64,000 nucleotides of DNA, taken from assembly GCF_964031045.1 (NCBI RefSeq), contig NZ_OZ034994.1, positions 992,001 to 1,056,000 on the forward strand, in the 5' to 3' direction. Below, piece after piece: positions 3,476 through 26,240 of this stretch. The notes under the pieces are model-generated. The model made no database searches. It saw only the letters and a list, made by a program, of their open reading frames with translations, and was not told the origin of the DNA. Position 1 is the first letter of the stretch. Each line of letters starts with the position of its first letter. Source of the DNA: Spiroplasma endosymbiont of Aspidapion aeneum (lineage in GTDB: Bacteria; Bacillota_I; Bacilli_A; Mycoplasmatales; Mycoplasmataceae). The translations under genes were made by a program, and so were the position numbers.

Positions 3476-3501
3476 TAAAAACTTTCATAATAATGTTTCT
3501 A

Positions 3502-3552
3502 CTTTCTACAGGTTTAGAATTATAATTTAATTAGGGTTAAACCCGTAGAAAG
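3502..3552 (+). promoter_or_regulatory. Dyad operator around the -10 box of the PTS-fucosidase unit
   Basis: Two 14-base arms (3502-3515 and 3539-3552) are inverted complements with one mismatch; the outer half reads TTTCTAC. The heptamer TTTCTAC is also directly repeated at 3496-3502 and 3503-3509. A TATAAT box lies between the arms at 3521-3526. This placement is typical of a repressor operator. The RpiR-family regulator encoded immediately upstream is the obvious candidate ligand-responsive protein. Confidence 0.55.
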
Positions 3553-3555
3553 AAA

Positions 3556-6496: not shown

Positions 6497-6513
6497 CAGT
6501 TCAAAATAATACA

Positions 6514-6575
6514 GCATAAGGGAAGCTAAGTGTACTGGAGGTTTTATCCTCCAGTACACTTAGCTTCCCTTATGC
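6514..6575 (+). repeat. 28-bp perfect palindromic repeat (copy 1)
   Basis: Arms 6514-6541 and 6548-6575 are perfect complements around a six-base loop (TTTTAT). The stem is much richer in G+C than its surroundings. It lies 17 bases after the fucosidase stop, so it may terminate that transcript, although no strong T run follows. A diverged relative lies at 28610-28658, which argues for a dispersed palindromic repeat rather than an ordinary terminator. Confidence 0.75.
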
Positions 6576-6838
6576 TTAACTACAATTTACACATAATTAT
6601 TATATTACCTTTTATTATAAAAGGGTAGAAAAATATTGTAATTATATTTTTTCATCTAAATCATATTGTTTAAAAATGAAATAATAAATAACATGATTTT
6701 TGACTACTTTTATTTTCCTTTCAAAAATATGTTGTAATAATGAAGCAATAATATTAATTTAAAAAATTAAGTAAATATAACAATATTATAAAAATTTGTA
6801 TAAAAAATAATATAAAATATAAAAGGAAGGTGATATAT
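6576..6838. other. Intergenic upstream of rpmB
   Basis: AT-rich spacer without open frames. It presumably holds the rpmB promoter; several TATAAT-like stretches occur near 6780-6820, none clearly better than the rest. Confidence 0.4.
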
Positions 6839-7036
6839 ATGGCTAGAAAAGACGATTTAACAGGAAAAGGTCCTTTATCTGGAAATTCAAGATCACACGC
6901 TTTGAATGCTAATAAAAGAAAATGGAACTTGAATTTACAAAAGGTAACTATTATCAATGAAAATGGAACACCAGAACGAATAAAAGTTTCTGCAAAAACA
7001 TTGAGAACATTGAGAAAAAATGAAAAAATAGCTTAA
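6839..7036 (+). CDS. rpmB: Ribosomal protein bL28
   Basis: Large-subunit ribosomal protein, 65 residues, the usual size. Seen: start [26 protein letters not shown], then [12 protein letters not shown] near the C-terminus. ATG 6839 was chosen over the in-frame ATG 6830 because AAGGAAGG precedes it at the right distance and the family begins MARK/MAR. It is a lone housekeeping gene between two catabolic loci, followed by a hairpin and tRNA-Leu. Confidence 0.97.
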
Positions 7037-7054
7037 AATCAAAAGATTTTAAGC
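7031..7054 (+). terminator. Hairpin over the rpmB stop codon
   Basis: GCTTAAAATC at 7031-7040 pairs perfectly with 7045-7054 around an AAAA loop, and the rpmB stop lies inside the left arm. No good T run follows, so it may be a weak terminator or a processing/stability hairpin between rpmB and the tRNA. Confidence 0.5.
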
Positions 7055-7059
7055 TATTT

Positions 7060-7144
7060 GCCCTTTTGGCGGAATTGGTAGACGCAGTAGACTCAAAATC
7101 TACCGGAGAAATCTGTATCGGTTCGACTCCGATAAAGGGCACCA
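7060..7144 (+). tRNA. tRNA-Leu (anticodon CAA)
   Basis: Class II tRNA. Seen: acceptor GCCCTTT pairs with AAAGGGC; D-arm GGCGGAATTGGTAGACGC; anticodon stem GTAGA/TCTAC with loop CTCAAAA, giving anticodon CAA for UUG codons. A long variable arm follows, then a T arm ATCGG-TTCGACT-CCGAT, and the 3' CCA is encoded. It is followed by a terminator at 7155-7179. Confidence 0.97.
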
Positions 7145-7154
7145 ACTAAGAAAT

Positions 7155-7179
7155 TAAAAAACCCTTTAAGGGTTTTTTT
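7155..7179. terminator. Bidirectional intrinsic terminator
   Basis: An A run, CCC, short loop TTTAA, GGG and a T run form a symmetric hairpin. It can end the rpmB/tRNA transcript on the plus strand and the long PTS-fucosidase operon converging on the minus strand. Confidence 0.85.
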
Positions 7180-7190
7180 ATTTCTTTGCC

Positions 7191-8306
7191 TTACTTAGTT
7201 TTTTTAAAAATAAAACTTGTTCAACTTTTTACAAATTCTATAAGATCTAAATCATATTTGTTAACACTCGCAACATGATTTACTTCCTTTCCGAGATTTT
7301 TAAAGTCATCTTTTAATATAACTATTAACTCATATTGATAGTTTTTATCATTATTATTTATAATTAGTATATCGCCACGATTATATGATTTTTTGTTATT
7401 AACTATAGGTTTTATATTATCTTTTCCTTGATAATATATTCGCGGCATTGTAGAACGAATATAATTTTCATTTATATCACCCCTACAAAAGTGGTCATTT
7501 CTATATAATATTTCTCTTTCCAATGGAGAAATTTTTGTGATTTCAACTATATCAAGTTCGATTAATGTATTATCTATTATTGATAATTCTGCTAATTCAT
7601 CTTCTTTAGCTGGTTGGTTCCCAATATATATATCACTAACATACCCCGTTGCTCATAACTCTTTCGCTTGAGTTCTTATCGGCTTAAATCTATGTCTCTC
7701 AACAGTTACTAATTCTTTTACATCCTCCATTTGAGGTCCTTTGGTACCATACTCAGAGCTAACAAAAGCGGATAAATGAATACCTTTATTATAGAATCTT
7801 CTTGATGAATCAATAAAATATTCTCATCCTAAGCCAGTATTTTTTTGTGGATAAAAATTATGGCATGCATATAGATTTTCAACTACAGGTTTATAATCCA
7901 GAATATTATCTATAAAATGGTCATTATTTGAAGCATTTACTTGAATATCTATTTTATTTCTATGTGTTGAAAATGCCACATCAGAAGGTAATAAGGGTGA
8001 ATCTAATCTCAAACAATCAACGCCAAGTTCTATGAAGAAACTAAGATCCTTAAAGTTAGAACCTGTTGCTTTTAATGCTAGATCTGCAATATCTACAACA
8101 ACATAAAAGTCATTTTTTTTTGCAAACCTAATAACATCAAAGTAAATGTCTTTATTCTTTTTAAATTCCTCAACAGTTCTAAATTGTAAAAAAGACATAA
8201 ATATTTTAGTAAAACCATATTTTTTTGCTAAACTTATATAATCTTTTGTTTCATTAATTGGTAATTTTTCGGGGTATATTGATATCCCAAGTTTCTTTTT
8301 AAACAT
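7191..8306 (-). CDS. DUF871/MupG-family 6-phosphosugar hydrolase
   Basis: 371-residue protein of the DUF871 family, whose characterised member MupG is a 6-phospho-N-acetylmuramidase acting on PTS-imported disaccharide phosphate. Seen: the N-terminal signature KLGISIYPEKLPINETKDYI, a TIM-barrel-like domain to ~240 (VVVDIADLALKAT; LRLDSPLL; NASNND), then a beta-rich C-terminal domain. Several TGA are read as Trp, the last near 7221. ATG 8306 was chosen: GGAG lies 10 bases upstream. A GTG at 8315 is possible but overlaps the ribosome site. It is the last gene of the minus-strand PTS-fucosidase operon. Inferred: it cleaves a 6-phosphorylated amino-sugar disaccharide. True muramidase activity would be odd in a cell without a wall. 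Confidence 0.85.
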
Positions 8307-8307
8307 G

Positions 8308-9528
8308 TTACTCACACTCCATTTCTAATAGCCTTACTATATAATTGGTTCCATATTCAAAAGACTCAATTTCCATATTTAGCTCATTCTTTTCAATATT
8401 ATAATAGCAATCCTTATTATTATCAAGATATCTTATTTTTTTTATTTCTTTATTTAAAAAATATTTAATTGAAAAGACATTTTTTTGGCTACCATAGTGA
8501 ATTGTTTCTACATGCCCCCCAGAATTAAGACCTCTAACTATTATGAAATATTTATTTTGTGTAACATTTTCTATTAAAGAAATATATTTATCATTATAGA
8601 GGCATCTTATTTCTCCATTTAGACAGTTTTTGTTTTCCTTAATCCAAGTTCCTATTTTAGATAAGTACCATTTCTCAAAGTTGCCTAAATTTCCATTTTT
8701 ATCTAAACCAATATTCAATAATAAATTTCCATAATTTTTTCGAATTGAGACGTAATCTGATATTATGCTTGAAAGTGGTTTAAAATTGAAATCAAATCTA
8801 GAATATCCTCAATGGTCATTAATAGAATAACAGATTTCAAATCCAATATCACAGTTTTTAAAATTACAAAACTCTTCTTCTTTTCCTTGTTCAAATGTTA
8901 CGCTATCAATTTCCTCATGAACTATTTGGCCTTTTTCTTCTAAACCGGTATTATTTATAATAATACAATTTTTATTATATTTTCTGATCATACTATACAA
9001 TTTATCAAGTTTTCAATCTTTATTTTTTTCGGATCAATTTCCATCAAATCAAAAACCAGAAATTTTTTCTTTATATTTGGTCAATAAATTTTTTACATTA
9101 TTATATATTTTTTCAACATTTACTGAAAAATTTTTGGCATCTTGTGTTCACTCCATTGTTGCGTAATATATAAAAGGCTTAATATCGTTTTTATGACATT
9201 CATTTATAAATTCTTCTATAACATCCTTTTTAGTATTTAATCACCCGATATCATATTTAGATTGACCTTTTGAATCAAACAAACAAAACCCATCGTGGTG
9301 TTTCGCTGTAAGAACGATATATTTTATTTGACATTTTTTAAAAAAGGGAATTAGATTTTTAAAATTTGCTTTGAGTTGAAAATCTTTTCCAATTAAATTA
9401 TAATATCGTTCCTCGGACATTTTATTCATTTCTAAATACCATTCACCCTTTTCCATTTTAGAATATAAACCATAATGGATGAACAATCCTAATCCTAAAT
9501 TTCTAAAATCCTTAATTCTATTTTTCAT
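8308..9528 (-). CDS. GH29 alpha-L-fucosidase, cytoplasmic (copy B)
   Basis: 406-residue GH29 fucosidase without a signal peptide, paralogous to the plus-strand copy. Seen: LFIHYGLYSKMEKGEWY, TAKHHDGFCLFDS, ISGFWFDGNWSEKN with the expected nucleophile Asp, and a C-terminal GLNSGGHV. Its ATG at 9528 lies inside the end of the EIIC gene (overlap 11 bases) and lacks a clear ribosome site, so translation probably depends on coupling. The DUF871 gene starts two bases past its stop. Inferred: it works on oligosaccharide phosphate delivered by the lactose-family PTS in the same operon. Confidence 0.9.
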
Positions 9529-11377
9529 AGTTATTATTTTTTAAGGCTTTATTTTTTTTATTTTGTTTTTCCAAAGTTTTGTTAATTAACATTTCTCTAA
9601 CAGATATTCCCAATTTATCAGCTTCTTTTTGATTATTATTTCTTTCTTCTGCTAATAAAGTTTTATCTCATATTATGAAAAATGGTGTTCAAATTAATGT
9701 CGCAACTACTATAGAAATCATAGATACTATAATAGCCCAGTAGTTATCTCCAGAAGCTAGATAACTTCCAATTGGAGCTGGTAAACTTCAAGGTGCTAAA
9801 ACAACTCAGTGAATTGCCGCAATTTTAATCAAAATTGTAGATACAATTGCACAAGCAACTGGTGTTAGCATAAATGGTATGAATAAATAAAAGTTTAAAA
9901 CAATTGGGAAACCAAACATCATTGGTTCAGAAATATTAAATAATGATGGAATAAATACTGCTTTTGACATACTTTTATTTTGAACTGATTTTGAAAAGAA
10001 TATAGATGCAAATGATAACCCAATTACAGAACCAGCGCCACCTATTCAAATCATTCATTGATAATATGGTTCTGGATATTGATATGGACATTCTCCATGC
10101 ATTCCGTTTGTAAACCAAGTTTGATTACTTGCGATAGCTGGATACCAGAAAGGATATGTTATTATACCTGTAATGGCACTACCATGTATTCCTAAAAATC
10201 AGAAGAATGAATTAAATAATACTATTAAAATAACGGCTCCAAAGTTATCATTAATTGCACTACCTATTGGAGATAATATGTTTTGCATTTGTATAATTAA
10301 GTCAAAATCAAAAATATAACGTATCAAAATAACAAACATTGCATAAACAACTGCTGGTATGATTGCTATAAATGAGTTTCCAACAGCGGGTGGAACTTGT
10401 TTTGGTAATCGAATAGTAATATTATATTTTTTAAATATCCTATACATCTCAACCATTATAATAGAACCAATCAGAGCTACGAATATACCTTGTGCTCCAA
10501 CATATGCTAGGCTTAGTGTAGAGTAATCAGAACTAATTCCTACTCATAAAATAAATCCAATAAACCCCATTAAACCTCCAATTGCTGCAGATTCATTATA
10601 CTGTTGGGCTAAATTAACTCCAATACCAAATGCTAACCCTACCGCCATTAAACCGAGTGTTAATGTAGAAATGACGGCTAGTCCATTATCTAATTTTGCT
10701 GGAAAATAACTTTTTAAGTATGCATGCGGTGAGTTTGGATCTGTACTGCACGGAATACTTCTTATAACTGTAATAAATGATGCAATCATTATTATTGGTA
10801 TAAGTGATGCAAATGAATTTCTTATAGCAACTAAGTGTTTTTGATTCGATAAAGCACTTAAATATGGCATTACAATATGGTTTGTTCTATTTAACATAAC
10901 CTTGCTTGTATTAATTTTTTTTCTTATTTTATTAACACCATGTTCATTTTTTTCTTCTATCGTTTTTATTTGTGACTTCAAATTTGGACTTTCTTCATCT
11001 CTAAATTTCTTAATGTCCTCTTTTGCCTCACTTATTAAAACTTTTTTTTCAATTTTACTTAATGTTTTATTTTTTCTAGCCCTTTTTAGTTTTTTCTCAA
11101 CTTTTGCTAAATTTTCATAATATTGATTTTGAAGCTCAATAATCTGTGCCTCATTTTCTTTTTGAGAAAGATATATTTTATACTTCTCTGGATCCTTCAT
11201 TTCAAATATTTTATTTTTATATTCATTTTTTAATGTTTGGATTTCCACTTTTGCCGCTTCTTTTATATCTGGTATCTCAAATTTATAAGTAGCTGGGGAA
11301 GATAGTTTATTTTTTTTCTCAGAGATAATTTGGCTTTTTTTCTCCAAATAACTACTTTTTTCTTCTTCAATAGTCAT
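9518..11377 (-). CDS. PTS lactose/cellobiose-family EIIC with N-terminal coiled coil
   Basis: Membrane channel of a lactose/cellobiose-type PTS, 619 residues. Seen: residues 1-~175 are highly charged and helical (many K/E heptads) with no counterpart in ordinary EIIC (~430-450 residues). Then come ~10 membrane segments with family motifs GIGVNLAQQYN, FWFLGIHGSAITG and FNISEPMMFGFPIVLN. A basic C-terminal tail follows the last helix. Many TGA are read as Trp. It starts one base into the end of EIIA (TAATG) and overlaps the fucosidase by 11 bases. Inferred: the extension is cytoplasmic and could tether EIIA/EIIB or a cytoskeletal partner. Confidence 0.9.
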
Positions 11378-11709
11378 TATTTTTTTCCTCCTTCATTAAG
11401 TCTTTCAAATAATATTACTATAGTTTCGGCCAATTCATTGACTGTTAAAGCTGACATGAAATGGTCTTGTGCGTGAATAAATAATGTATTTATATCATAC
11501 TCTTTACCGCTTGCTTCAGTTTGTATTATTTCCGCATGGATTCTATGAACATTCAATATCATCTCCTTAGCACTGGCAATTAATTTATTTGCCTCTACAA
11601 AATCACCTTTTTTTGCAAACTTAATAGCCTTTAGAGCCGTTGCCTTTGATTCACCAGAATATGAGATTAATTCCATACTTATATCTGTAGTTGAAACTTT
11701 ATTATTCAT
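11377..11709 (-). CDS. PTS lactose/cellobiose-family EIIA
   Basis: Phosphocarrier of 110 residues, the normal family size. Seen: all-helical pattern SYSGESKATALKAIKFAK and FIHAQDHFMSA, whose first histidine is the phosphorylation site and whose Asp is the metal-binding residue of the trimer. It takes phosphate from HPr and passes it to the EIIB encoded upstream. The ribosome site GAAAGGA lies inside the end of the small membrane-protein gene. Confidence 0.95.
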   Translation of the reverse strand: MNNKVSTTDISMELISYSGESKATALKAIKFAKKGDFVEANKLIASAKEMILNVHRIHAEIIQTEASGKEYDINTLFIHAQDHFMSALTVNELAETIVILFERLNEGGKK

Positions 11710-11710
11710 A

Positions 11711-12013
11711 TTAAAATTTTCCTTTCAATTTTAATATATTTCTATATCGATATTTAAAGTTAGATAAACCACAAATAATTCCGATGAAGGAACCTCAGCA
11801 AACCGCTGATATGGTTGCAATAAACTCAAATGATGTAAAATATGTTAATAAAATTGTTATTGTAGCACATATTATTGTGCCTATTGTTCCTGTAATTCAA
11901 GCACTTATTAGTATTTTTTTATTTTCTCCAATTTTAAAACCTATGTAGTAGCAAAGTCCAAAGGTAACAAATAAAAAGATTATTGTTAATATTATTGTCA
12001 ATGTATTTGACAT
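11711..12013 (-). CDS. Small membrane protein between EIIB and EIIA
   Basis: 100-residue protein with three to four predicted membrane segments (ILTIIFLFVTFGLCYYIGF; TIICATITILLTYFTSF; SAVCWGSFIGIICGL) and a basic C-terminal tail. Two TGA are read as Trp, which hides it in a standard-code translation. ATG 12013 overlaps the EIIB stop (TAATG) and its own stop precedes EIIA by two bases, so it is a regular member of the operon. No family recognised; ordinary lactose-type PTS operons do not contain such a protein. Confidence 0.75.
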
Positions 12014-12327
12014 TATAATTTTAACGCTACTTTCATTTTTTCAAATAGTGACTCTGCATTAACAGCTACATATTCTTTTGCAATAATTTGTAAAAATGGG
12101 ACCCCTTTTTCTTCAAAAAGTTCTTCATAATCATCATAGTAAGTACTTAAATGTGGTGCGAATAAAACTATATCATACTCATTAGCAACAACTTCCATGG
12201 GTTTAGATCCTAATCCACATTCAGAAATGTGTATATTAAAGTCTTTACCTAATTCATTTAATCTTTGTGCTAGAATAGAGGATGAATAACCGCCCGCACA
12301 AAACAATATTCCCTTTATTTCCTTCAT
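12013..12327 (-). CDS. PTS lactose/cellobiose-family EIIB
   Basis: Cytoplasmic EIIB of 104 residues. Seen: the P-loop-like active site LFCAGGYSSSILAQRL with the phosphorylated cysteine at residue ~9, then ISECGLGSK and DIVLFAPHL. ATG 12327 was chosen over upstream in-frame starts because GGGGG lies 7 bases before it. First gene of the minus-strand operon EIIB - small membrane protein - EIIA - EIIC - fucosidase - DUF871. Confidence 0.95.
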   Translation of the reverse strand: MKEIKGILFCAGGYSSSILAQRLNELGKDFNIHISECGLGSKPMEVVANEYDIVLFAPHLSTYYDDYEELFEEKGVPFLQIIAKEYVAVNAESLFEKMKVALKL

Positions 12328-12401
12328 ATATCCCCCTATTAATATTGGTGACAGAAAATCTATCACCTATAATTAGTTTATATTATTGTAAATAAATAAC
12401 A

Positions 12402-12457
12402 ATAAGTGTTTGTACAATGAAAATATTTTTACTCAAAAAAAATATTTTTACACTTAT
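12402..12457. promoter_or_regulatory. Operator-like direct and inverted repeats, divergent promoter
   Basis: In the spacer between the PTS operon (minus) and the kinase (plus), ATAAGTGT at 12402-12409 is complemented at 12450-12457. Inside lie two exact 13-base direct repeats of AAAATATTTTTAC at 12420-12432 and 12439-12451, 19 bases apart. Such spaced repeats over a divergent promoter suggest binding by a dimeric regulator; the nearby RpiR-family protein at 13414-14232 is the obvious candidate. The -10 boxes cannot be fixed. Confidence 0.45.
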
Positions 12458-12508
12458 CATAAAAAATAACAATATATTTGTTATTTAATATAAATGGAGG
12501 TTATTTTT

Positions 12509-13360
12509 ATGACTATATATATTGATGGTGGTGCAACAAGCACAAAAGTTTACTATAAAAAAGATGGCAAAATACAAATTCTTTTTCATACAAATAGAAT
12601 GAATATAACAACAAATGAGTCACAAGCTCTTAAAAATATTATTGATTGCTTTGAACAAATTTCAAATGAAATTTCTACAAATAATAATATGTACTATCTT
12701 GGTATTTCGGGGTTTATTAATTATGATGTTAATAAGATAACAGGACCTTTATTTAAGCGTTTTGACTTTCTCAATAAAAATAATATAAAAATAATGATAG
12801 ATGTTGAAATGCAACTATATTTAAATATAGGTGACGATTTTATTAATGAAAACTTTGTTTATATTGCTTGTGGAACAGGGTCAAACACGATAGAATGTTA
12901 TAATAAAAAATGAAAAACAGTCGGAGGATGAGGTTATTTTTTTGGGGACGAAGGAAGTGCATATGATTTTTCAAAAGAGTGAATTATAATGGCATTGAAG
13001 GCCTTTGATAAAAATCGGGAAAACAAATTTACAAAATCAGTATGTGATTTTTTTAATATAAAAAACCCTAGCCAGATAACAGAGTTATACAAGACACCAA
13101 ACATGGTTAAAAATTACTTAGCTGATTTTTGTGTTTATTTGGTAGAAGAAAATCACAAGAAATACAAAGAAGAAATTGAAATAGTTATGGCTAAGATAGC
13201 AACTAATATGTCAACATACTTAAATGGCATGATAGATTTTGAAAAGCACAAAACCGTTTATCTATATGGCGGTTTATTTAAAAATAAATTGTATTATGAT
13301 ACACTAACTAAAAGTCTTAATGCAGATGATAAAACAACAAAATTTATAAAAATAACATAA
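12509..13360 (+). CDS. BadF/BadG-type sugar kinase (N-acetylglucosamine kinase-like)
   Basis: ASKHA-fold kinase of 283 residues. Seen: phosphate-1 motif IYIDGGATSTKVYY at the N-terminus; YIACGTGSNTIECY (phosphate 2) near 130; GGWGYFFGDEGSAY; and LYGGLFKNKLYY (adenosine motif) near the end. Two or more TGA are read as Trp. ATG 12509 was chosen: GGAGG lies 8 bases upstream. Known: this family includes GlcNAc/MurNAc and glucosamine kinases. Inferred: it phosphorylates the free amino sugar released by the divergent operon's hydrolases. The exact sugar is not readable from the sequence. Confidence 0.85.
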
Positions 13361-13413: not shown

Positions 13414-14232
13414 TTAAATAAATTTTTTATTTGTATTCTCAATATCATCAATGTTAACTAAATTTATAACCATTAATTTTAGGAGAAACATAATTATAAT
13501 TTCGGATGAGAATTTAGCACCGACTATGTTATCTTTATTTTCAACAACAAAAATGTTATCATTGGGAATGCCAGCTAGTAATTCCGATTTTATATTTTTT
13601 GTAATGTAATAACATGGTGTTTTTTTAATTTTTAAATTTTTGCTTAATTCATAAAAAAAGGGGTCAGATAACGACATTGAAATAACTATTGCAAAATCAT
13701 CTGATTTCATATTTTCTACATAAGATGATTGTTGTTCAATTATTGAAGAATAAATAACATTAAAATCGAGTCTTATTAGTGTGTGAACTACTGTTTTCAT
13801 TAAAAAATTATTATTTCCTATTCCAAAAAAATAAATTCTTTTATCACTTGAGATTTTATCTTTTATAATTGCTAATTTATTAATATTATTATCAAAAGTT
13901 TTTTTAAGAGAACTAATAAGATTATCTTTAAAAAATAGTGATGATTCTATATCCATATTTGTTTTTGAAGAACAATCATCTTTTTGCACATATTCGCCAC
14001 CTTTTATTTTTAAAAGAAAATGTAGTTCTTTAAAACCTTCATATTCTAATTCGTTACAAAATCTTGTTATTGTTGCTGGAGATGTAAATGTCTTCTTAGA
14101 TAATTTCATAATTGAAAAATCATTAAATGAATCTTTAGAGTTATTAAGAAGGTATTTAGCTATTCCTCTAAATGTTTCGTTACCAGATGTATAATAAATG
14201 TTCTTTAATTTAGCAATGAGTTTAGCTTCCAT
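13414..14232 (-). CDS. RpiR/MurR-family transcriptional regulator
   Basis: 272-residue regulator. Seen: an N-terminal helix-turn-helix with KTFTSPATITRFCNELEYEG (residues ~47-66), then a SIS domain starting at RIYFFGIGNNN and including VIVISMSLSDP-type serines expected for phosphosugar binding. ATG 14232 has AAAGGA upstream; an in-frame start at 14247 lacks one. It is convergent with the kinase and lies next to the PTS-fucosidase locus. It is paralogous to the regulator at 2663-3475. Inferred: it controls the divergent PTS/kinase promoters, possibly with MurNAc-6-P- or GlcNAc-6-P-like effectors. Confidence 0.88.
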   Translation of the reverse strand: MEAKLIAKLKNIYYTSGNETFRGIAKYLLNNSKDSFNDFSIMKLSKKTFTSPATITRFCNELEYEGFKELHFLLKIKGGEYVQKDDCSSKTNMDIESSLFFKDNLISSLKKTFDNNINKLAIIKDKISSDKRIYFFGIGNNNFLMKTVVHTLIRLDFNVIYSSIIEQQSSYVENMKSDDFAIVISMSLSDPFFYELSKNLKIKKTPCYYITKNIKSELLAGIPNDNIFVVENKDNIVGAKFSSEIIIMFLLKLMVINLVNIDDIENTNKKFI

Positions 14233-15217
14233 CAATATTCCTTTCACTTGTTTCTTATTAGTAAATTTTATATATATTGTATTTATATATATAATACATA
14301 TTTATATGTCATTTTGCGCCATTTTTAGTATTTATATATTAATTAATTACTATTCATTTATAATTTTCTAGAGAGAAAAAGAAATCTATTGTACTAAATT
14401 ATATCTATTTTTTTCTTTTTACTAATTATAGTATAATTTATTTCATTTATTAAATTTTATTGTTATATGAACTTTTAAAGGGTATTTAATAAATACTTAA
14501 GACTTTTAATTTTTTCCCGAATAATTTTATGAAATTTATTTTATTCAACTATTTAAGTGTTTTAATAGATAATTATAGTTTAACTCTTTTTAAGACAATG
14601 GTTGTGTAATTTGTTTAATGGCTTTAAAAAGTTAAAAATATTTTTATTGGCAAAAACCCTATCACTACTATCTGACTGCGATATTAATTTTTTAATATCT
14701 TATTTACACATTTTATATATTTTCAAAAAAATTTAATTGCAATATAACTATTTTATTTATTATAATTATTTCTATTAAATCCCCTTAACAATTTATTGTT
14801 TTTTAGCAGTAGTTTTTTATTATTTAAAATACTTAATCCTATTACAATATGATTATAAAATATACTAAAACCTTATATTTTCTAATAAATTGTTAAAATA
14901 GCCCTTTGCTTGAAATATTTTCTATTAAAATATGATGATGATAATGTAACTAAAAATTATTCTTAAATATTTAGTAAAGAGAAAAAAATAAATTTTGCTT
15001 TGAATTATAACAGTTGTTCTACTAATGTTAAAATATTTAATTAAATAATTTGAATTTGAATTTAAATTTGCTACGAATAAAAATATTGGGGAGCTATCGT
15101 AATATTATAGATTTTCTATATTAATTTTGTCTTCTTACTCATCGCCATCAGATTGATCATCACATAACTGTGTGGTAAAAAGTGGCCTTTTTCCATACTT
15201 AATATTTCTCTTTAATT
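14233..15217. other. Gene-poor AT-rich stretch
   Basis: About 1 kb without a supportable gene. Seen: an exact 13-base inverted repeat, TTAACAATTTATT at 14785-14797 and its complement at 14884-14896. Near 15130-15215 on the minus strand is a short open stretch ending FTTQLCDDQSDGDE-stop, which may be the tail of a lost gene. It leads into the IS element and looks like decayed accessory DNA. Confidence 0.5.
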
Positions 15218-15220
15218 ATA

Positions 15221-16618
15221 GGTTAGGCAAAGGTAACCCTAAGGGGAGGAAATAATATTTACTTCTCACTAGTAGAAAGGTTACTTTTTTTATGAAAAAA
15301 TATAGTTACAAAACAAAATATCAAGCAATGTTGACTATTCAAATGGAATGAAAATTAGTGAAATAGTTAAAAAATACAAAATAACTTCTGGTGCACCGCT
15401 TATTTCATATTGGATTATTAGGTATAATAATATTGAAGAATTAAAATTATCTTCAATGAAAGAAGAAGAATATATGGCAAAAATTGAATCTGAAGAAATA
15501 TTAAAAGATAAAAAAATGAAAAAATTGGAGCAAGAAAATAAAGAATTAAAATGGGAAAATGAGAAACTTAAGATGCAAAACAATGTGCTAAAAAAGTTCG
15601 ATCCTTCATGACAGATGCGTGACATGAAGGAGAAGATGACGACTAAACCATATAAGCATCATTCATTTTGTGATATATATATAAAGGAATTTAAAAGGGT
15701 GGACTGTTAAAAAAATGTGTGATGCATTGGGAGTATCTGTAAGTAAATATTATGCATTCAAAAAACGTTTTAATTTGTTAAAAAAATCATAATTCAAATA
15801 CTGAAATTATCCGCCTTTCATCCCTAAATATATATCAAAATCTAATCCTAATGCAGAAGATATGATTACTAAATTTTATACAACAATTAATACTCCTGGA
15901 AGCGCTTTTACAATAAATAAGTGAATAAACACTACATATAATGTTAATGTTAGTCGGAAAATCATTCGAGAATAGCAATTAAAGTATCCTCTAAAATTTC
16001 CTGTAGCTGTTCGCTGAACTAAGAGAAGTAAGGCAGCGCGAATTAAACAAAACATTAGAAATGACTTAATTGGAAATGATACATATACAACATGTCCAGG
16101 ACAAAAAATTGGTATTGATGGAACTTGATTTAAGGATCTATTTATAAATGGAAAAGAACTAAGTTATTATGTGAAATTGCTTATGATTGATTTACTAGAA
16201 AGGTTGTGTCATATTCAATTGGTCAGGGTGAAAACAAACAAACTGTTGTTTCAACATTATATGGTATATCTAAATATCTCTCAAAAAATGACTTCACAAA
16301 TTGTATAGTTCAAATGGATAGAGGTTCAGCCAATCTTTCCTATGAAGTTCTAAATTATAAAAATCATCAGCACAATTTTATAATATCAATGTCTAATTCT
16401 GGTTTTAAGCACAATTCATCAATAGAGGCATTAAATGGTTGAATTAAAGAACAATTCTATTTATCAGTTGGAAATCTCTTTAATTCACTTTCAGATTTTT
16501 ACAAAGCATTCAAAACATTTATTAAAAACAAAAATTTATTACAAACTTATATTTACAAACAAAAAAGAGGTGAGATATTTATTTAACTTCTCTCCCCTTA
16601 GGGTTAACCATGCTTACA
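15221..16618 (+). mobile_element. Decayed IS3-family insertion sequence
   Basis: About 1.4 kb. Seen: ends that are imperfect inverted repeats over ~27 bases, with a perfect core TAACCCTAAGGGGAG at 15234-15248 and its complement at 16592-16606. A possible 3-bp target duplication ATA flanks the element (15218-15220 and 16619-16621). Between the ends are OrfA-like and OrfB-like transposase remnants. Size, two-ORF layout, DDE signature and 3-bp duplication fit the IS150 group of IS3. Confidence 0.8.
15292..16586 (+). pseudogene. IS3-family transposase OrfA/OrfB, broken
   Basis: Remnant transposase in several frames. Seen: OrfA start MKKYSYKTKYQAML at 15292, a frameshift, then a helical leucine-zipper-like stretch (KKLEQENKELKWENEKLK) to ~15600. 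OrfB pieces follow: GIDGTWF (first catalytic Asp region), IVQMDRGSANLSYEV (second Asp), and ISMSNSGF with SSIEALNGWIKEQFY (Glu), the normal order DDE of the integrase core. At least three frame breaks or stops mean no functional product. Final stop TAA 16584-16586. Confidence 0.82.
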
Positions 16619-16721: not shown

Positions 16722-17318
16722 TTAATCTTTATTTGTAAGAAATAGTTGATTAACTAGGGTTTGAAACTCTTCTCCTCCACCATTTAGATTCACCCTATCT
16801 CTAAATAATTGAATTTCAATTTTAGAGTGTGGCTCGTTAAAGTATGAACTATTTGTATATTTAGCAGAAATATTAATTACTCTTTGATTTGTACTTCCTA
16901 TTAATCTTCTTTTATGGTCAAGTTTACTTAAAATAAATGGCCCATCAATTAAAATATCTATATTATTTAAAATATTTTCATATTCATCCTTCAATTTTTC
17001 ATAAATATAACCTGTAAAGCATATAACATCAAGATTTTCTTTACTACATAAATCTACCAATTCATAAAGGCCTTCAGGCTGAAGAAATGGTTCGCCGCCC
17101 AAAATTGTTACTCCGATTATTTTGTTTTTTTTCTTAGATTTTTTTATCTCATTAAAAAGTACCCTTACTTCTACAAAAAGTTTTTCGCTCAAATCTAACA
17201 TACTTTTATTTTGACACCCTTTGCATCCTATTAAACATCCCTGCACTCAAATGACAAATCTTTTACCAGGACCCTCTATTTCAGAACAAGTCAAGAATTT
17301 TGCAATATTTATTTTCAT
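16722..17318 (-). CDS. Radical-SAM activase-like protein (NrdG-like)
   Basis: 198-residue protein with a single 4Fe-4S radical-SAM core. Seen: GKRFVIWVQGCLIGCKGC, giving the cluster motif CX3CX2C (Cys28, Cys32, Cys35); the SAM-binding ILGGEPFLQP; then an alpha/beta half-barrel to ~135 and a divergent C-terminus. One TGA (Trp24) hides the true N-terminus; ATG 17318 starts two bases past the AAA+ stop. Known: this short architecture matches activating enzymes for glycyl-radical proteins. No glycyl-radical enzyme is in the window, so a different substrate is possible. It is the last gene of the helicase/AAA+ operon. Confidence 0.82.
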
Positions 17319-17319
17319 T

Positions 17320-19086
17320 TTACACTATTTTGAAGATTATACTATTATCAACTATTGATGGATAGATTTCACAATTAGGTTTTATATCATTAAGATTTAT
17401 AAAAATAAATTCAGATAACGGATCAATAAAATTAGTTTCAAGTGAATTAACTATATCTCTTCCCCCTCTTCTTTCATCAAAGCCTTTTAATAATGTGGCA
17501 ATAAATATATTATCTATTTTAATTATTAGTTTTGCTTTATATTTATCATAAATAGCTAATTGAATTGGTCTTAATTTTTGTTCTAAAATTTCAGCCTTTA
17601 ACTTTATATCTCTAATAAAATTAAATGGTACTATATTGTTACCAAATCGACCTAATAATTCAGGCCTATTTAATTGGTGAGTAAAATGGTTTTGTACTTT
17701 TTGAATAAACTCTTTTGCAACTGTTTCATTACTATTATTTGGACTTACTTCACTAGCACCGATATTTGAGGTAAATATAATAAATGTTTCTGAAAAATTT
17801 ATAGTTTGACCAGTATTATCAGTTAATCTACCATCTTCTAAGATTTGCAAAAACTTATCAAAAATTGTTGGTGAAGCTTTTTCTATTTCATCAAACAGTA
17901 TAACAGAAAAAGGTTTTTCTTTAACAGCATTTGTTAATTGTCCACCACCCTCAAATCCTACATATCCCGGTGGAGCACCAATCAGCTTCTGGTCGGAGTT
18001 ATCTTGACCATATTCTGACATATCAAATCTAATTAGATTTGATTCATCATTGAATAAAAATGTAGTTATTGCCTTTGCTAATTCAGTCTTCCCAGTTCCG
18101 GTTGGCCCAACGAAAAATAATGTTCCTTTTGGTTTTGATCTTTTTGAGGAATATGCAATACCAGTTAAACCAGTAAACGCTTTGTACAAAACCTTCTCAA
18201 CTTTGCTTATTGCTTCTTCTTGTCCAATAACACGTGATTTTAAATATTTTTTTGCACTAGATATTTTCTTATAATCTAGCTGTTCTCAAGGCGATGTTTT
18301 TTCTCCAAATATAAATGCGCTGTATTTTTTTTGAAAACTAAGTTCCTTATTATAATTTGATGTAAACTTTGAAAATTTAATTATATCCTTTAAAGTAGAC
18401 CCTTCGAATGCGTCTATAATTAAATCAAAGTCATCGTTAATGTTTGTAACCTTTATCCTTGATTTAATTGTGTTCAGCAAATTTTTTCTCTCATCACGAG
18501 AAGGTTTTGTTAAAGATGATACAATAACATCTGGATTATCTAAATATATACTTGGAGGTAGTTGATTTATTTTTTGTGTAATAAAAACAACTGCACTTGT
18601 TAATGAGTCTACTTCTGAAAGTTCAAATTTAGATTCTTTTAATATCTTATAGAAATCTGTCATAGCTTTTCGTTCTTCAAATTCCAAATTCTGTTCTGAA
18701 AAAATAAAATTAGAGTAGTCAATGATAAATAATGATTTATATTTATTATTAAGCATAACCTTACTCAAAATAGAAAAAAATTGATAATTATTCTTAAATA
18801 ATAATGATTGATTTCCATTATCTAATTGATTCAATTTAGCTTCAATTTTATTTTCATTACACAAATCATGTAAATCATTCAAGTTGTTTCCTTCAATTCC
18901 TCTTGCAAGATCAAATTTATATATGTGATTAAATTTGCTATGTTCAGCAATCATTTCTAAAATAGATGAGATATTACAAAAATTATTCTCATAATAAAAT
19001 AAATCGTTTACATTTCCTTCAATAATCAAAACTCTGCTCACTCCTAAAAGTGAGCTTATTCTTGAAAGTTCTCTGTTTGTATCCAT
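17320..19086 (-). CDS. Two-domain AAA+ ATPase, inactive first domain and ClpB-D2-like second
   Basis: 588 residues. Seen: residues ~1-265 look like an AAA domain without a Walker A loop (LIIEGNVNDLFYY in its place; Walker-B-like LFIIDYSNF; SLTKPSRDERKNLL in the lid position). From ~285, VIGQEEAISKVE opens a canonical ClpB/ClpA second AAA domain: Walker A GPTGTGKT (327-334), IRFDMSEYGQ, the pore loop GAPPGYVGFEGGGQLT, Walker B VILFDEIEK, and sensor 1 FTSNIGAS. There is no ClpB N-domain, no middle coiled coil and no ClpP-binding tripeptide that I can see. Likely an unfoldase or remodelling motor. Good ribosome site GGGAGG. It follows the coiled-coil gene by 12 bases. Confidence 0.85.
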
Positions 19087-19098
19087 TTAATTGCCTCC

Positions 19099-20154
19099 CT
19101 ATTGCTTGTAATTTTTTTTTGTTTTTAAATTATTTTTGTTTTTAATGTATTTTGGTTCACGATAAATGCGTGAGACAATTTCATTGCCAACAATTCCTTG
19201 CTTTCTAAGTTCTTCTTTAAATAAATTAAAATCTATATCATGTTCGTGGCCTTCAAAACCTTCAAAATTATAAATTAATGAACCATCCATTTTAATTGAA
19301 AAATCTACAGTTTTATCATAATTATTAACACAATGTATATATATTGTGTTTTCTTTTTCATTTAAAACAATTTCATCTTTATTAATATTATAACCTATTT
19401 TTTTAATAGCATTCATTACTTTCTTAGCATTTTCATGTTGCATCTGCATATTTTCTCTAAGAGCGATAGAATATTCAATTGCTTTAATAGTCGATAGATT
19501 TTGTGATACTGCAGTAGCCTTGATTCTTTTTGTTATTCAATAATCATTTTTTGTTCTTGGATCAAATATTTTTAGGTAATCATTAATTTCAAATTTAGAT
19601 TTTAAGTTTTCAAACTTTATTTGTTTGCAAATATCTAAATAAACTTCTTCTTTACTCATATTAATATAAATGTGTTTTTTTTCATCAAATATTTTTTTTA
19701 CCAAAACTTTATCATCAATATCTGCAAATTGCTTTTTTATCTCCTCTAAATAAAACTCAATAGTATTGTTATTATTATTTGATAGCGCTAGAAAGATATT
19801 CTCTTTTTCTTTATCAATTACAAAATCCTCAAATTCTAATAATTCCATTCTTATGTCATTTAATTTTTTATTAACTCTCTCAGTAATGTTATTTAAATTA
19901 TTATATCTCTCAATTTCATTTTCCACTTCTTCACACTGTGGATTTGTTATTATAAAGTTATCTATTTTTTCTTGTTCAATATTTAGATTATTTTGTGCCT
20001 TAATTAATAAATCCATAATAACTGTATCAATTTTAAAACTACTAAATTGATTTATAAGGTCATTAATTCTATTTTTTAATATGTAAATTTCATTAGAGCA
20101 TATCTGATATCTTTTTTTACAATCTCTTAACATTTCTGTTGCACTTAAACTCAT
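19099..20154 (-). CDS. Coiled-coil protein of unknown function
   Basis: 351 residues, no named family recognised. Seen: residues ~1-130 are strongly heptad-like (KNRINDLINQF; EIERYNNLNNITERVNKKL). A middle helical segment ends near IFDPRTKNDYW (the W is TGA), followed by a compact C-terminal domain. This has a beta-rich part TIYIHCVNNYDKTVDFSI-MDGSLIYNFEGFEG that vaguely recalls small DGxxxxxxxGxxG (DUF2997-like) modules. ATG 20154 has GGGG upstream. It lies between the 740-residue protein and the AAA+ motor; the coiled coil suggests an adaptor or assembly role in that set. Confidence 0.75.
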
Positions 20155-20166
20155 ATATACCCCTTT

Positions 20167-22389
20167 TTATACTTTTCCATATTTTACCTTTAATGCCTTC
20201 ACTAGATTCGGAAAACTATAATTTATTTTTTCAATTTCCTCATTGTCAATATTTAATACGTTCACAATGTATTCATATTTTAACTCTGTTGGTAGTTTTT
20301 TTTCTTCATCAGTGGTTAAAAAATTATTAAGTATGAAATCTATTTGATTTAAATATTCATCAGCTTTTTTACTTCTTAAAATTCTAATTTCGAATTGCTC
20401 TTCACCAATTAAGTTGGCAATGTTATTAATGTTTTTTTCAGAATTATAATATTCATAAAAACTATTTAAATATTGCCCAACTATTGTAATATATCTTTTA
20501 CGATCTTTTATATTTTCTATAGACTGATTTATAGTCGCCATTACCTGATCTACTAAATCGTTATAATTTTTTCAACAATCTATAAAATTATTTTGATAAA
20601 TTGTTTTCATAACTAAACTATAGGTGTTTAACATTACAGCATGATTTTTTCAAATGTGTGATTTATGGTCGATTTCTGAAAACAAACCTATCTTTTGATT
20701 TTTTCAATAATGCTCTAACATTATTTCAACACAATTCAAGCAATCTATAGATCATGGGTCTATATCTGCTTTTTCCAAGTAACCGATTATACTCATCAAG
20801 CTTTTTCAGTTTCAATGATAGTTAAGGTCCTCTAACAATTTAATAAATTTATTAATGCTAGAAATTTTATATGATAGTAATAATTTAACTATATCTTCAG
20901 CTGTCTTAATCTCAGATAAATCGTAAATACATTTTATCAACATTTTTTCAAAAATCTTTTTACTTATTTGTGAACCCTTGTCAAATTTTTCAACTATCTC
21001 ATTATATACATTTGGATTAAGAATATTATCATTTATAAAACTATATATTTTATCCTCAAATTTTTCTTTAACACCTATTCTAGTTAAAACCTCCAGAATA
21101 TCATTTAATTCATTTATTCTATTTTCTTTTAATATGTTATCAAATTGATTTTCAAAATGTTCCTTTTCTTGATTATAAATTTCTTTTAAATTAATAATTA
21201 CATTTTTTTTATTATACAAATAGGGTATTTTCACATTTTTAAAAATACTTTTATTTGCAAGATAATATGTAGTCGATTCTAATAAATCAATAAATGTAAA
21301 TGAGCTATTTAACAAATCATTATTCGACAACTGGTTAGTATAAAAAATAATTATGTTATTAAAACGATCTATTTTCCTTGTATTTACTTTAGAATTATAA
21401 ACTATTAAATATTTAATATTTGAAAATAACTTTTTGTCCTCAATTAATTTCTTAAAAACATTTATATATCTCCCGTTTAGTAGACATAAATCATATGTAG
21501 ATTTTGTTTGAATTTCAGAAAATAACCCTACGGATGTTGCATTGGCAATTACCGTGTCTGAGTTATGTAAGTCAAGAGGAAGCAATTTTTCTCTAGTGTG
21601 AGTTGTATAATTACTTAAAATTTCAATAAACAGTTTCTTTTTTAAATCATTATTGCTATTTATTTTTTTTTCAATTTTTTCATTCTCACATATAATTTGT
21701 ATTTTGTTTTCCTCTTCATTGAAAGAAATAAAAATTTCAAAGGCTATTTGTTCATTGTTAAAAACTGGTTCTATACTATTATTACCATCTCATTCTTTGC
21801 CATCAATAAAAAAACCAACAATATCAGATGGGCTGAAATTATCATTATCATTAGCAAGCAACCTTAAGCAGTTCTCTTTTATTTTTTCATAATCTAATTT
21901 ATATTTATTGTTGTGTGTAGTTATTGAATAATTATATTTTGAGCCAGAAATTCTTTTAGGTCAATTATTTTCCTTATTAACTTCTCATGTGTCTTGAAAA
22001 TTATCAAAATATAATTTAAATAATTCTGTTTTTTGAATTACAGATTTTCCAAATTCTCCATTCTCAATACTTTTTCTTATTTCTTCTGGCACTGAAAGAT
22101 TTGAAATTTGAACGTTAAATAAATTTTGTGAGAAACTATAGTCACCTATTTCAGTTCTTACACACTTAATTAGTAATAGGTCATCTAATGCTTTTTCAAA
22201 TAAGTCTTGTTTTACAATATTAAAGTCATCCTTTAAAATATCACTCAGAGATTTTTTTCTGTCCGGATAATTTAATAAAATTGAATACAATAAAAACTCA
22301 ATATAAGTTGGAAATCTTTTTTCCAAAAACTGTACTTTTATTGGTGTATATTTTTTTGTGTAGGTAAACTCAATATTATATATATTCAT
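20167..22389 (-). CDS. 740-residue protein of unknown family, partner of the helicase
   Basis: Large soluble protein; I recognise no domain. Seen: N-terminal ~100 residues alpha/beta, starting MNIYNIEFTYTKKYTPIKVQ. A middle part (~265-390) has alternating strands and helices (LCLLNGRYINVF; IKYLIVYNSK; NIIIFYTNQL) that could be a Rossmann-like or nuclease-like core. The last ~350 residues are all helical. No membrane segment or metal-binding cluster is evident. About ten TGA are read as Trp, so a standard-code reading breaks it into pieces. Its ATG lies two bases after the helicase stop. The tight junction suggests that it works with the helicase. Confidence 0.75.
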
Positions 22390-22390
22390 T

Positions 22391-25300
22391 TTATTTCTCC
22401 ATTATGTCTTCAATAGTCATTATTCTTGCTGACTGACTTATCTTTGCAATTATATCAGTATAAACTTCTTTTTTTCTAGTTTCATTAGGATTAGATATTA
22501 GCGGAAGATCGACATAAACATTGGCAACAGCTCTTATTGAGCCGATAATAACCAATAGTTCTTTGGCTCTTGAAAATGCAACATTAATCCTTTCATATCT
22601 TTTTAAAAATTCTCTGCCAGTTGTTGAAGATAATTTTTCAGGATTTCGTACAATATTAACTATTACATAATCAGCTTCCTTTCCTTGAAAATCATCAACT
22701 GTTGATATTATAAGATTTATATTACTCAATCGAATATTATTAAGTTCACTCTTTAGTTTTTGCATATGCAATCCATAAAAACTAATAATTGCCAATGATG
22801 GCTTATACTTTGTCTTTTTATCACCTAGATTGTCATTTATTTTTTTTACCATGTCAACTGTGATTGCTATTTCATTTTCATTAAATAAACTGGTTGAAAA
22901 TATTTCACTTCTTTCATATGCAATTTCTTTTCCGAGATCATATGTGGAATCAATTCAATAAACAGAACTATTTCTCGATATAATTAAATCACCCTTATGG
23001 TTAAAAATTTCTAATCCATGTAATTTTTTATCACTTAATTTGGGATCTGTTATCAATTGATTATCATAAAATATATTAACGATATCCGCAATTTGTGAAT
23101 GACATCTATATTGCTTGTTTAAAATTGTTGTTATTGAGCCGTTATTTGCAGATACCATTTCCTTAAATAAAGACTGATCTAAAGTATTATAGAATTCTTC
23201 AAAGTTATAATATTTACCAGTTTTTTTATTCACATATTCAATATCTTCTTTTTGTAATTTTAATATTGGCGGTAATTGTCTATAATCACCAACAAGTATT
23301 AAAACTTTACCATATACTAATGGCATTAAGATTTCAATAATAGTAGCCTTGGACGCCTCATCTATAATAACATATTCAATGTCATCGTTTCTCAAATCGA
23401 TATTATTTATACAAAGATCTTTTTGGAAATTTATTTTATCAAAACGGTATAAATTTGTTGAAGTAAGTGTCATTGCAAATATGTTTATAAGTTTATCTAA
23501 TATTAAATTTGAGTATTTTTTCGTTTCATTTATAAGTTTTTTTGAACAATCTTTAATTGAAATATTATCTTTGTCTAAATCGCTACCAAATATATTTTTA
23601 GTATAATTATTTACAAGGTTATATATAGGATTTAGAATATTTTTTCGTTTAGAAATTTGATCTAGCCTGCTATCAACTTCTTTTAACTTAATATCCAAAA
23701 ATTGATTTACTTTTTCATTTGAAATATCAACATCAATATTAAATTTTTGTTTCATTTCCTTAGCCAAAGATGATAATTCTGATAATTGCATACTTGCGTT
23801 AGAGATTTTATTTGCTCTAATTATTGAAAGTTTGTTTTTTTCAATTTCTAAAGATTTGATATTTTCAAAAATATCCTCTTTTTCAATATTATTTTTTTGC
23901 TTATCAATGCTTTTTTTGTAAATATTCAGTTTATTAATTACCATTTTATACAAGTTAACAAATTCATTATATATATCAAATTTTTCTATAATAAAAAGCT
24001 TATTTTTTAATGATGACTTAAGATTTTCTAGATTTTTAAAATCAACATTATTCTGAGTATCTTTAATTTCCTCTTTTAACTTCTTAATTTCCTTAATCAT
24101 TGGAATTCTTGTATTTATTAAATTAGAAATGGTTTTCATTTTTTTAAATATACTGTCAAAATCATAATCTGAGTATCCCAATTTTTTTACTAAAAAAGAA
24201 TCAATGTATATGCCAATATCGTCTGCTATTTGCTTATCTATTCTTTTAGAACTGTCAAATGCAACATTATAATCATCCTCATCAATACATAAAGCTAATC
24301 TATCAATATAAAACAAATCCTTATTTAAATTAAATAAAACTTTTTCTGAGTTAGAATATTTAGTGTTTAAATTAGATATTTCATTACTTATTTTCTCTAT
24401 ATTAGAGTCAAGGCTTATAATTTCTTTATCTGAATCGTATACACTTTTATTCACATTTATTAATAAAGAAATTTTATTCTTTAAATCATTTATTTCATTA
24501 ATTTTATCCGGGGAATAAAAATTATCATTCAATATTTGACTATTTATTGACTTGTAATAATTATAAACAACATTTTCAGGCGTATAATTATTATCTCAAG
24601 GATTAGCTTGTGAAGACAACCTAATTTTATTAATGTCTGGTGACCTTGGAAGACGTTCAATAACATTATTAATCGCTTCGTGATTCTGACTAGAAATCAA
24701 AATTTTACAGTTTCTTTTTGCCAATTGGTATGCTATCTCAGAAATAACTTGTGTTTTTCCAGTTCCAGGCGGACCTTGTATAACAAATATATCCTTAGTA
24801 TTTAAAGCTTGTATAACAGCTTTTTTTTGATAATCATTTAATTTAAAATAAAATTTTATTTCTTCTTCGTTAACATCGATTTCAGATTGTGCTAACTCAA
24901 TTAATTTAGTATTAAACAAATAATTTATAAGATAAGGATTCTTGGTTTTTCCTTCAGAAATTTGTCGAAGTACATTTCTGTATCTATTAATTAATACTTC
25001 TTCCCCAATGCTCATTTGAATAACATACCCTTGGTTCAGAATATTTTCCTTTGATGATTCATAATTATTATCTAAGTTTTCATAACATTCATAAACAAAT
25101 CTCTTTATTCGCAATTCATTCATTGTTTCTTTATTTGTTTCAATATACTTATTTAATTTATTAATATCCCCTAAAAATATTTTATCCATTGATTTTCAAT
25201 ATTCAATAAATTTACCAGAACCTTGATATTCATGTATCAAATCGTCTAATTTTATTTTTTCAATATTCTCTGAAATTTTTTCAAATTCGAAATCATAATA

Positions 25301-26218
25301 ATTTGATATATCTGTTTTAGCATAAAAATTATTATTATATTTCTTATTAATATTCAAAGGACAAAGATACAACTCAAGACCTTTTTTAATAAAATTAAGA
25401 TCTTGATTTTCTTTAACAAGAGTGTCAATACTTAAAATATAAATATCTATGTATGGAATTTTAGTTTCTTGAACAATATTCAGGGCATTGTATTTTAGAT
25501 AAATATATCTATCATTTGATATATCGGAGATAAAATACTCCTTAAAATCCAACTTGTTAAATTTGGTTTTTATTTTTAATACCTTAATTTTTTGCAAGTT
25601 TAAATATGGAACGGCATCTCTTCTGCGTATATCAATTTGATCCTGACAAAAATCTATATATTTTAATCATTTTTCCTTATTCTCATTAAAACTAGTATGA
25701 ATCTTATTTATTTGCATAATGTTTGTAGAATTTATTATACCTCTTTTGATAATTTCGTTATCAGATATTTCTTTTCCAAACCTAATTGTAAAAATTTCAC
25801 AATTGCCTATAGTAGTTTCAAAATCTTGTGGTTTTGGTTTCAATTTAGTTATAAAAATATTATTAATAATCAAGGATGGTCTATTAGGATTGATGTCTAT
25901 AAAAAAACCTATATATGAATCTTTTTGAAATTTGTCTTGACTAGATTTGTTTAGTACAATTCTTATTATTCCGTCAAAAACTTCTTTGTCATTATTTTTT
26001 AATTTCCTTTTTGAGTCACTCAAAAGACAAATAAAACCTTTCTCTACTATACTATTCTTTAAAAAAATAATAAAGTCATTAAAATTATTTACATTTTTGA
26101 TTTTTAATTTTTTTGTAAATAAATCTAAACCAGTGTTATTATTAGCAAATAGAACATTTTGAATGTATGAAAAATCTAATATTAGTTCTTTATCTTCTGA
26201 AATAATTGTTTTTGCCAT
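22391..26218 (-). CDS. SF1 helicase, UPF1/DNA2-like, with large coiled-coil insertion
   Basis: 1275-residue superfamily 1B NTPase. Seen: an N-terminal ~450 residues of unknown fold; Q-motif-like FKLNDYQKKAV; motif I IQGPPGTGKTQ (482-489); motif II IIDEASKAT (DEAS 953-956); motif III LVGDYRQLPP (~977); motif IV-like NKQYRCH; motif V TVDDFQGKEAD (~1174); motif VI INVAFSRAKE (~1212). The ~450 residues between motifs I and II are mostly long charged helices, far more than in UPF1. All core motifs are intact, so it should hydrolyse ATP on RNA or DNA. Ribosome site AGAGG. Four TGA split it if the standard code is used. It heads the five-gene set with its own promoter. Confidence 0.9.
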
Positions 26219-26234: not shown

Positions 26235-26240
26235 ATTATA
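26235..26240 (-). promoter_or_regulatory. Extended -10 box of the helicase operon
   Basis: On the minus strand the sequence reads TGTTATAAT (TGn plus TATAAT), 16 bases before the helicase ATG. Transcription would start near 26228, giving a very short leader that still includes AGAGG. This gives the five-gene set a promoter separate from the ABC pair upstream. Confidence 0.6.

Follow-up and report, generated by a model that had tools for sequence, protein, structure and literature searches.

We propose that five minus-strand genes at positions 16722-26218 of the window (the 64-kb stretch of DNA analysed here, part of one 1.21-Mb contig) form a conflict system, most likely directed against mobile elements. 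We put the probability of this reading at about 0.6. The system would consist of a helicase-effector pair, HEL and U740, and of a switch built from a coiled-coil protein (CC), a ClpB-like AAA protein (AAA) and a radical-SAM protein (rSAM). We infer its defence role from co-inheritance, intact catalytic motifs, carriage on plasmids and in islands, RNase domains in relatives and exchange of the CC-AAA-rSAM trio. The trio is the new part, while the UPF1-like helicase-effector pair is known in kind.

All five genes predicted by the sequence-only reading were present and whole when TGA was read as tryptophan (table 4). Under table 11 the same frames fragment at TGA. The genes and the promoter-like element are as follows.

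22391-26218, minus strand: HEL, 1275 aa
20167-22389, minus strand: U740, 740 aa, predicted effector or adaptor with an MkoB/CnuE-like N-terminus
19099-20154, minus strand: CC, 351 aa, helical N-terminal part and a conserved C-terminal domain at about 19150-19482
17320-19086, minus strand: AAA, 588 aa, two AAA modules
16722-17318, minus strand: rSAM, 198 aa, radical-SAM activase-like, with GGEP, and CX3CX2C at 17214-17237
26240-26235, minus strand: hexamer TATAAT of an extended -10 element (TGTTATAAT), preceded by TGT, ahead of HEL

From HEL to rSAM the gaps are 1, 12, 12 and 1 bases. The spacing is as tight as first described, but the junctions of 2-13 bases given then were base-to-base counts and the true gaps are 1-12. 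A GAGG ribosome site lies ahead of the HEL ATG. The extended -10 promoter is present in sequence as well, but since such patterns are common by chance in AT-rich DNA (110 were found in the window DNA and 88 +/- 9.5 in shuffles), the element at 26235-26240 is at most suggestive. An IS3-type remnant was found just downstream of the operon, at 15.3-16.6 kb, and rplM and rpsI at 32.5-33.4 kb, 6 kb from the five-gene unit.

Relatives were labelled by family and genus (g2-g12) and by locus (L numbers); genome size, genetic code and gene content make Spiroplasma's family the most probable one for the window. The U740 search matched 26 genomes (26/99). Besides the window's own, the matches covered 22/22 of the g11 genomes searched, 3/3 of g12, one g8 genome and, weakly, one g7 genome. 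With the helicase search, the unit was found in 34 genomes of the family, the window's among them, and in nine of g7; no match to it was seen in genera g2, g3, g4, g5, g9 and g10. The order HEL-U740-CC-AAA-rSAM was the same in all 27 family neighbourhoods read. At L164 and L170 inserted genes separate CC from AAA, the U740 frame of L170 is also split, and at L036 the operon has decayed. Three genomes seemed to lack CC, but this was an artefact of ORF picking. Across 30 operons the pairwise distances of the five proteins correlate with r = 0.89-0.98. The five genes are one co-inherited unit and their co-occurrence is far beyond chance. The neighbourhood comparison suggested along with the sequence-only reading found them together in the 27 family neighbourhoods, in other Bacilli and on plasmids, which means that they travel together, with their order unchanged, in dozens of genomes from three bacterial groups. 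It is therefore very improbable that they are chance neighbours, or a metabolic operon around a glycyl-radical enzyme activase. Chance adjacency was rejected on this distribution and on the correlated distances.

HEL is the UPF1-like SF1B helicase that it had been called. It is an AAA_11/AAA_12 helicase in Pfam, its nearest solved structures are Sen1, IGHMBP2, Dna2 and UPF1, and the helicase motifs GPPGTGKT, DEAS and GDYRQLPP are intact. Walker A and Walker B are 469 residues apart, helix-prone by sequence, and the alignment places an insertion between them.

23474-24541 (approximate), minus strand: helical, coiled-coil-prone insertion of about 350 residues in HEL, between motif Ia and Walker B

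The best PADLOC match of HEL was MkoA (3e-99, profile positions 507-1099 of 1112). The kinase part of MkoA (about 6-277) was not covered by HEL, and HEL had no Pkinase match.

The AF2 model of U740 is confident (pLDDT 87) and shows a winged helix, an alpha/beta domain and a long helical end.

22048-22317, minus strand: U740 residues 25-114, predicted winged helix (AF2 model; weak structural matches to MarR-type wHTH, Z 5-6)
21196-21543, minus strand: U740 residues 283-398, alpha/beta domain, tentatively PLD-like (conserved YNSKxN; weak structural matches)
20167-21192, minus strand: U740 residues 400-740, helical superhelix where relatives have their PIN/HEPN end, HEPN motif absent

The alpha/beta domain matched the PLD-superfamily proteins Tdp1 and MITD1 over about 100 residues (Z 6.0 and 5.7). 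Since these matches are weak, we treat a PLD-like effector as a lead and not as a result. Searches of the model with Foldseek and VIA-align gave nothing significant, the N-terminal half gave only weak wHTH and PLD-like matches, and the U740 profile had no significant match among solved structures. Neither U740 nor CC has a family in Pfam, PADLOC or NCBIfam. Both had been described as proteins without a known family, but U740 does have relatives (U7xx), which carry PIN or HEPN ends. In profile comparisons the N-terminal half of U740 matched proteins of other Bacilli (probability 95, E 2e-8) and its first 250 residues matched plasmid proteins (probability 84, E 8e-6; direct profile match 5e-6). 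The plasmid U7xx proteins have a C-terminal PIN_4 RNase domain (E 1e-19 to 1e-24) with invariant acidic residues. Those of other Bacilli have a HEPN/DUF4145-like C-terminus (1.2e-5 and 1.5e-4, slightly below the curated cut-offs), and RNxxxH is invariant in 6/6 of them. The motif occurs in no U740 of the window's family, and we rejected a HEPN assignment for the C-terminus there, since no alignment with the HEPN end was obtained. Unrelated helices take the place of the RNase end in the window's family.

No PADLOC, Pfam or NCBIfam entry corresponds to the whole five-gene set and we found no paper that describes it. The PADLOC comparison, also suggested at the outset, linked HEL to the MkoA core only and a plasmid relative to the MkoB N-terminus. 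The claim that the locus matches no named defence system holds for the whole set, but the HEL-U740 pair is of a known kind, with the MkoA core in HEL, a link to the MkoB N-terminus by way of plasmid relatives, and the pattern of CoCoNuT relatives (PMC11090510). The plasmid relative is the U7xx protein L278, which resembles MkoB residues 6-189 (1.1e-5). These profile matches would suit a Mokosh type I system (MkoA plus MkoB) with three minor extra genes, but we consider such membership improbable. Unlike MkoA, in which a COG1112-type RNA helicase is joined to a Ser/Thr kinase, HEL has no kinase domain, the rest of MkoB is absent, and CC, AAA and rSAM are co-inherited as strictly as the HEL-U740 pair. 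The U740 of the window itself had no direct match to MkoB, either in PADLOC or with the MkoB profile across its own genome, although this profile is a poor genome-wide test since it mostly matches through its own second half.

The pair also resembles CoCoNuT systems and their relatives. There, a UPF1-like helicase that carries a helical insertion typically precedes the gene of an elongated wHTH-nuclease protein, and the effectors are HEPN or PLD domains (PMC11090510). Like CnuH, HEL belongs to the UPF1-like SF1 helicases and has a large helical insertion that follows Walker A. CnuE starts with a winged helix and ends in a varying nuclease, and the product of the gene after HEL may follow the same plan: in U740 the wHTH is predicted, and a nuclease end is clear only in relatives. 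An added signalling module is often present in CoCoNuT systems as well (PMC11090510). Unlike in types II and III, there is no match to McrB (CnuB) or McrC (CnuC) among the five proteins, whose gene order is constant without them, and no TerY-P triad, and CC, the ClpB-like AAA and rSAM are there instead. PIN ends also occur, and the window's family has neither a PIN nor a HEPN end. To judge from these comparisons, HEL-U740 probably functions in the manner of a CnuH-CnuE or Mokosh pair. Since McrB/C, TerY-P and the kinase fusion are missing, we place it in neither.

Next to this pair, CC-AAA-rSAM is a second, portable unit. The CC profile gave mainly weak helical matches to solved structures. 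We do not claim a DUF2997-like end for CC, as its sole support was an E of 0.05 in one relative. The ClpB-like motor first described in AAA is indeed a ClpB-type AAA_2 module, but the protein has two AAA modules and the first is without a P-loop.

18289-19086, minus strand: AAA residues 1-266, first AAA module, degenerate, with GNxxD in the place of the P-loop, lid-like end kept
17644-18135, minus strand: AAA residues 318-481, active-looking ClpB-type AAA_2 module with Walker A and B, sensor and arginine finger

The first module matched proteasomal AAA subunits weakly and below significance. AAA shares a second module with all motifs with the ClpB/ClpA disaggregases. It differs from them in its first module, in its score (245, where the cut-off for ClpB is 1232 bits) and in having its own tree branch; ClpB itself combines two active AAA modules with an N domain and a coiled middle domain. 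A protein with two AAA modules, the first dead and the second active, and in some cases a radical-SAM partner, is also the design of the FtsH ternary and related NTP-dependent conflict systems (PMC7159879). Theirs are an FtsH-type AAA and a vWA-MoxR, whereas here the AAA is of ClpB type and there is no vWA-MoxR. Relatives of AAA with rSAM and/or a coiled-coil protein were found in Deltaproteobacteria, Methylocaldum, Bifidobacteriaceae and Clostridia, where they stand alongside kinase, FHA or PP2C genes and have no paired helicase.

The third member, rSAM, was rightly called radical-SAM activase-like. It is a Fer4_12 protein similar to NrdG and PFL activases, with the small radical-SAM fold, CX3CX2C and GGEP, and it falls below the NCBIfam NrdG cut-off. 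This activase likeness is what a metabolic operon would draw on. Against it, NrdD is absent from the genome, and about 700 bases downstream of the PFL gene lies another radical-SAM gene, so rSAM of the operon is not needed for either enzyme. It has no dedicated glycyl-radical partner, and we rejected it as a plain PFL or NrdD activase. Its substrate presumably differs from NrdD and PFL and lies within the operon.

The conflict-system reading draws on the relatives outside the window's family. The five genes occur in the same order in six other Bacilli (L157, L158, L161, L162, L163 and L262); the rSAM frame of L163 is short, and an HTH gene lies immediately upstream of two of the six operons. 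The same order was found on plasmids of Photobacterium, Polaromonas, Moellerella and Acinetobacter. The Moellerella plasmid is conjugative and its operon adjoins ardA and an integrase. No near copy was seen in E. coli genomes. We also found a sister form of four genes, HEL, U6xx, CC and AAA, without rSAM. It is present in another family and in g11 genomes that also have the five-gene unit. Its neighbours include AIPR abortive-infection, DNA methylase, NgoFVII-type, HNH and type III restriction genes. In the AAA tree the five-gene operons group together with the sister form (SH-aLRT 98), away from ClpB and other AAA users, and in the helicase tree every lineage forms its own group. In one Bacilli genome (L292), a helicase like MkoA and a gene like that of MkoB are accompanied by kinase-, PP2C- and vWA-like genes (neighbours read from sequence), which shows that the helicase-effector pair changes partners. 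Among the contextual signs of a conflict role, the position of the sister form in restriction and abortive-infection islands is the strongest, and plasmid carriage points the same way. Of the original conflict-system proposal, the idea itself gained from both observations, but the pair is of a known kind and the unit is not accessory in the family.

Within the window's family the picture is different. In g7, g8 and g12 the unit adjoins or lies near rplM-rpsI, and in g11 it often adjoins an 805-aa gene in their place. An accessory region had been proposed from the IS remnants, and the IS3-type remnant does lie downstream. However, the unit was present in 22/22 g11 genomes and keeps the rplM-rpsI locus in three genera. 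Because of this it looks like a case of long vertical inheritance, stable within the family, and not like a recent island, and it may have been domesticated. Such near-universal vertical presence in one genus, with a ribosomal-protein locus elsewhere, counts against a conflict system since it is unlike fast-turnover defence genes. It is expected if the unit is a domesticated RNA or protein quality-control module in this family, with HEL clearing stalled RNA or ribosomal complexes, AAA unfolding and U740 serving as an adaptor without nuclease. The presence in 3/3 genomes of another genus, the loss of the PIN/HEPN ends and the RNA surveillance performed by relatives of UPF1 and Sen1 speak for this as well. 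We nevertheless regard quality control as the less likely reading, though a serious one. The unit is dispensable, since five or more sister genera gave no sign of it and in G055 it is decaying. U740 evolves faster than any of the other four proteins, unlike a core factor: its mean identity within the family is 27%, compared with 38% for CC, 42% for HEL, 59% for rSAM and 62% for AAA. Moreover, relatives are found on plasmids with RNase ends and in restriction islands.

For a conflict system, we envisage that HEL would load on foreign or aberrant RNA or single-stranded DNA and pass the nucleic acid to U740, which would dock on HEL through its winged-helix N-terminus. The C-terminal part of U740 would be the effector or its remnant. 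This would be a PIN or HEPN RNase in the relatives, and in the window's family a PLD-like and helical part with a putative activity. AAA would act as an unfoldase, a ClpB-like hexamer whose first ring is dead and whose second is live, and would remodel the HEL-U740 complex through the coiled-coil adaptor CC. rSAM may modify or license a partner and in this way set a threshold. In the order that we suggest, the CC-AAA-rSAM switch would free the toxic effector only upon a trigger. The missing PIN/HEPN end in the window's family weighs against this mechanism, as does the weakness of the PLD-like match there (Z 6). So does the N-terminal domain of AAA, which had no relative in phage records; a scan of viral contigs gave matches only to the ClpB-like half of the protein.

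A broader idea, which we put forward tentatively, is that the radical-SAM protein, the ClpB-like unfoldase and the coiled-coil adaptor are an undescribed immune switch. They would be a portable cassette placed on varied toxic effectors, such as helicase-nuclease pairs and kinase/FHA sets, with gating by radical modification and forced unfolding and not by a nucleotide messenger or a GTPase. UPF1-like helicases paired with swappable RNases are an emerging class of RNA-directed defence in prokaryotes. The five-gene set ties such a pair, in three bacterial groups, to a portable unfoldase and radical-SAM trio. The plasmid-borne relatives make the switch directly testable in E. coli. In the window's family, very reduced and wall-less bacteria would have retained such a system over a long time.

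A four-gene sister form of the five-gene operon was found at four loci of relatives (L263, L264, L265 and L266). It consists of a helicase, an effector-like protein, a coiled-coil protein and an AAA protein, and the radical SAM gene is absent. Restriction or abortive-infection genes adjoin it in three of the four loci. In g11, a genus of the window's family, the sister form is present alongside the five-gene unit.

The five-gene operon is decaying in genome G055 (L036), where the UPF1-like helicase and the 740-aa predicted effector/adaptor are broken and the radical-SAM protein is shortened. The coiled-coil and AAA frames remain open.

The surroundings of the operons contain the following features:

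Window 15348-15710 and 16206-16586, plus strand: IS3-type transposase-like remnants, as read from the sequence
Window 2651-13360: sugar cluster
L157:5971-6513 and L163:6990-7526: small HTH and coiled-coil protein, directly upstream of operons from other Bacilli

The orfA-like and C-terminal orfB-like pieces, apparently IS3 remnants, lie directly downstream of the window's operon. The sugar cluster includes a pair of fucosidase-like genes and a pair of PTS transporters, together with MupG and a regulator of the RpiR type, and is followed by a second RpiR (13414-14247). The HTH/coiled-coil gene is perhaps a sixth, regulatory gene of the Bacilli operons.

At L292:8028-16123, a MkoA-like helicase and a MkoB-like protein (Mokosh type I) are adjoined by kinase-, PP2C- and vWA-like genes, which by their sequences look like a TerY-P-like triad.

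The AAA superfamily also occurs in other settings. L270:7767-11466 holds a tandem pair of AAA proteins (606 and 634 aa) flanked by genes for small membrane proteins, and has neither a helicase nor a radical SAM gene. In Methylocaldum (L048:10028-16925), the kinase-FHA-CC-AAA-rSAM set is followed by genes that, judged by sequence alone, resemble a type III CRISPR (Cmr) cluster. A further user of the AAA-rSAM module is an Aristaeella plasmid operon (L279:1-15999), in which AAA and radical SAM are accompanied by a DUF4011 helicase, FHA, PP2C and two kinases.
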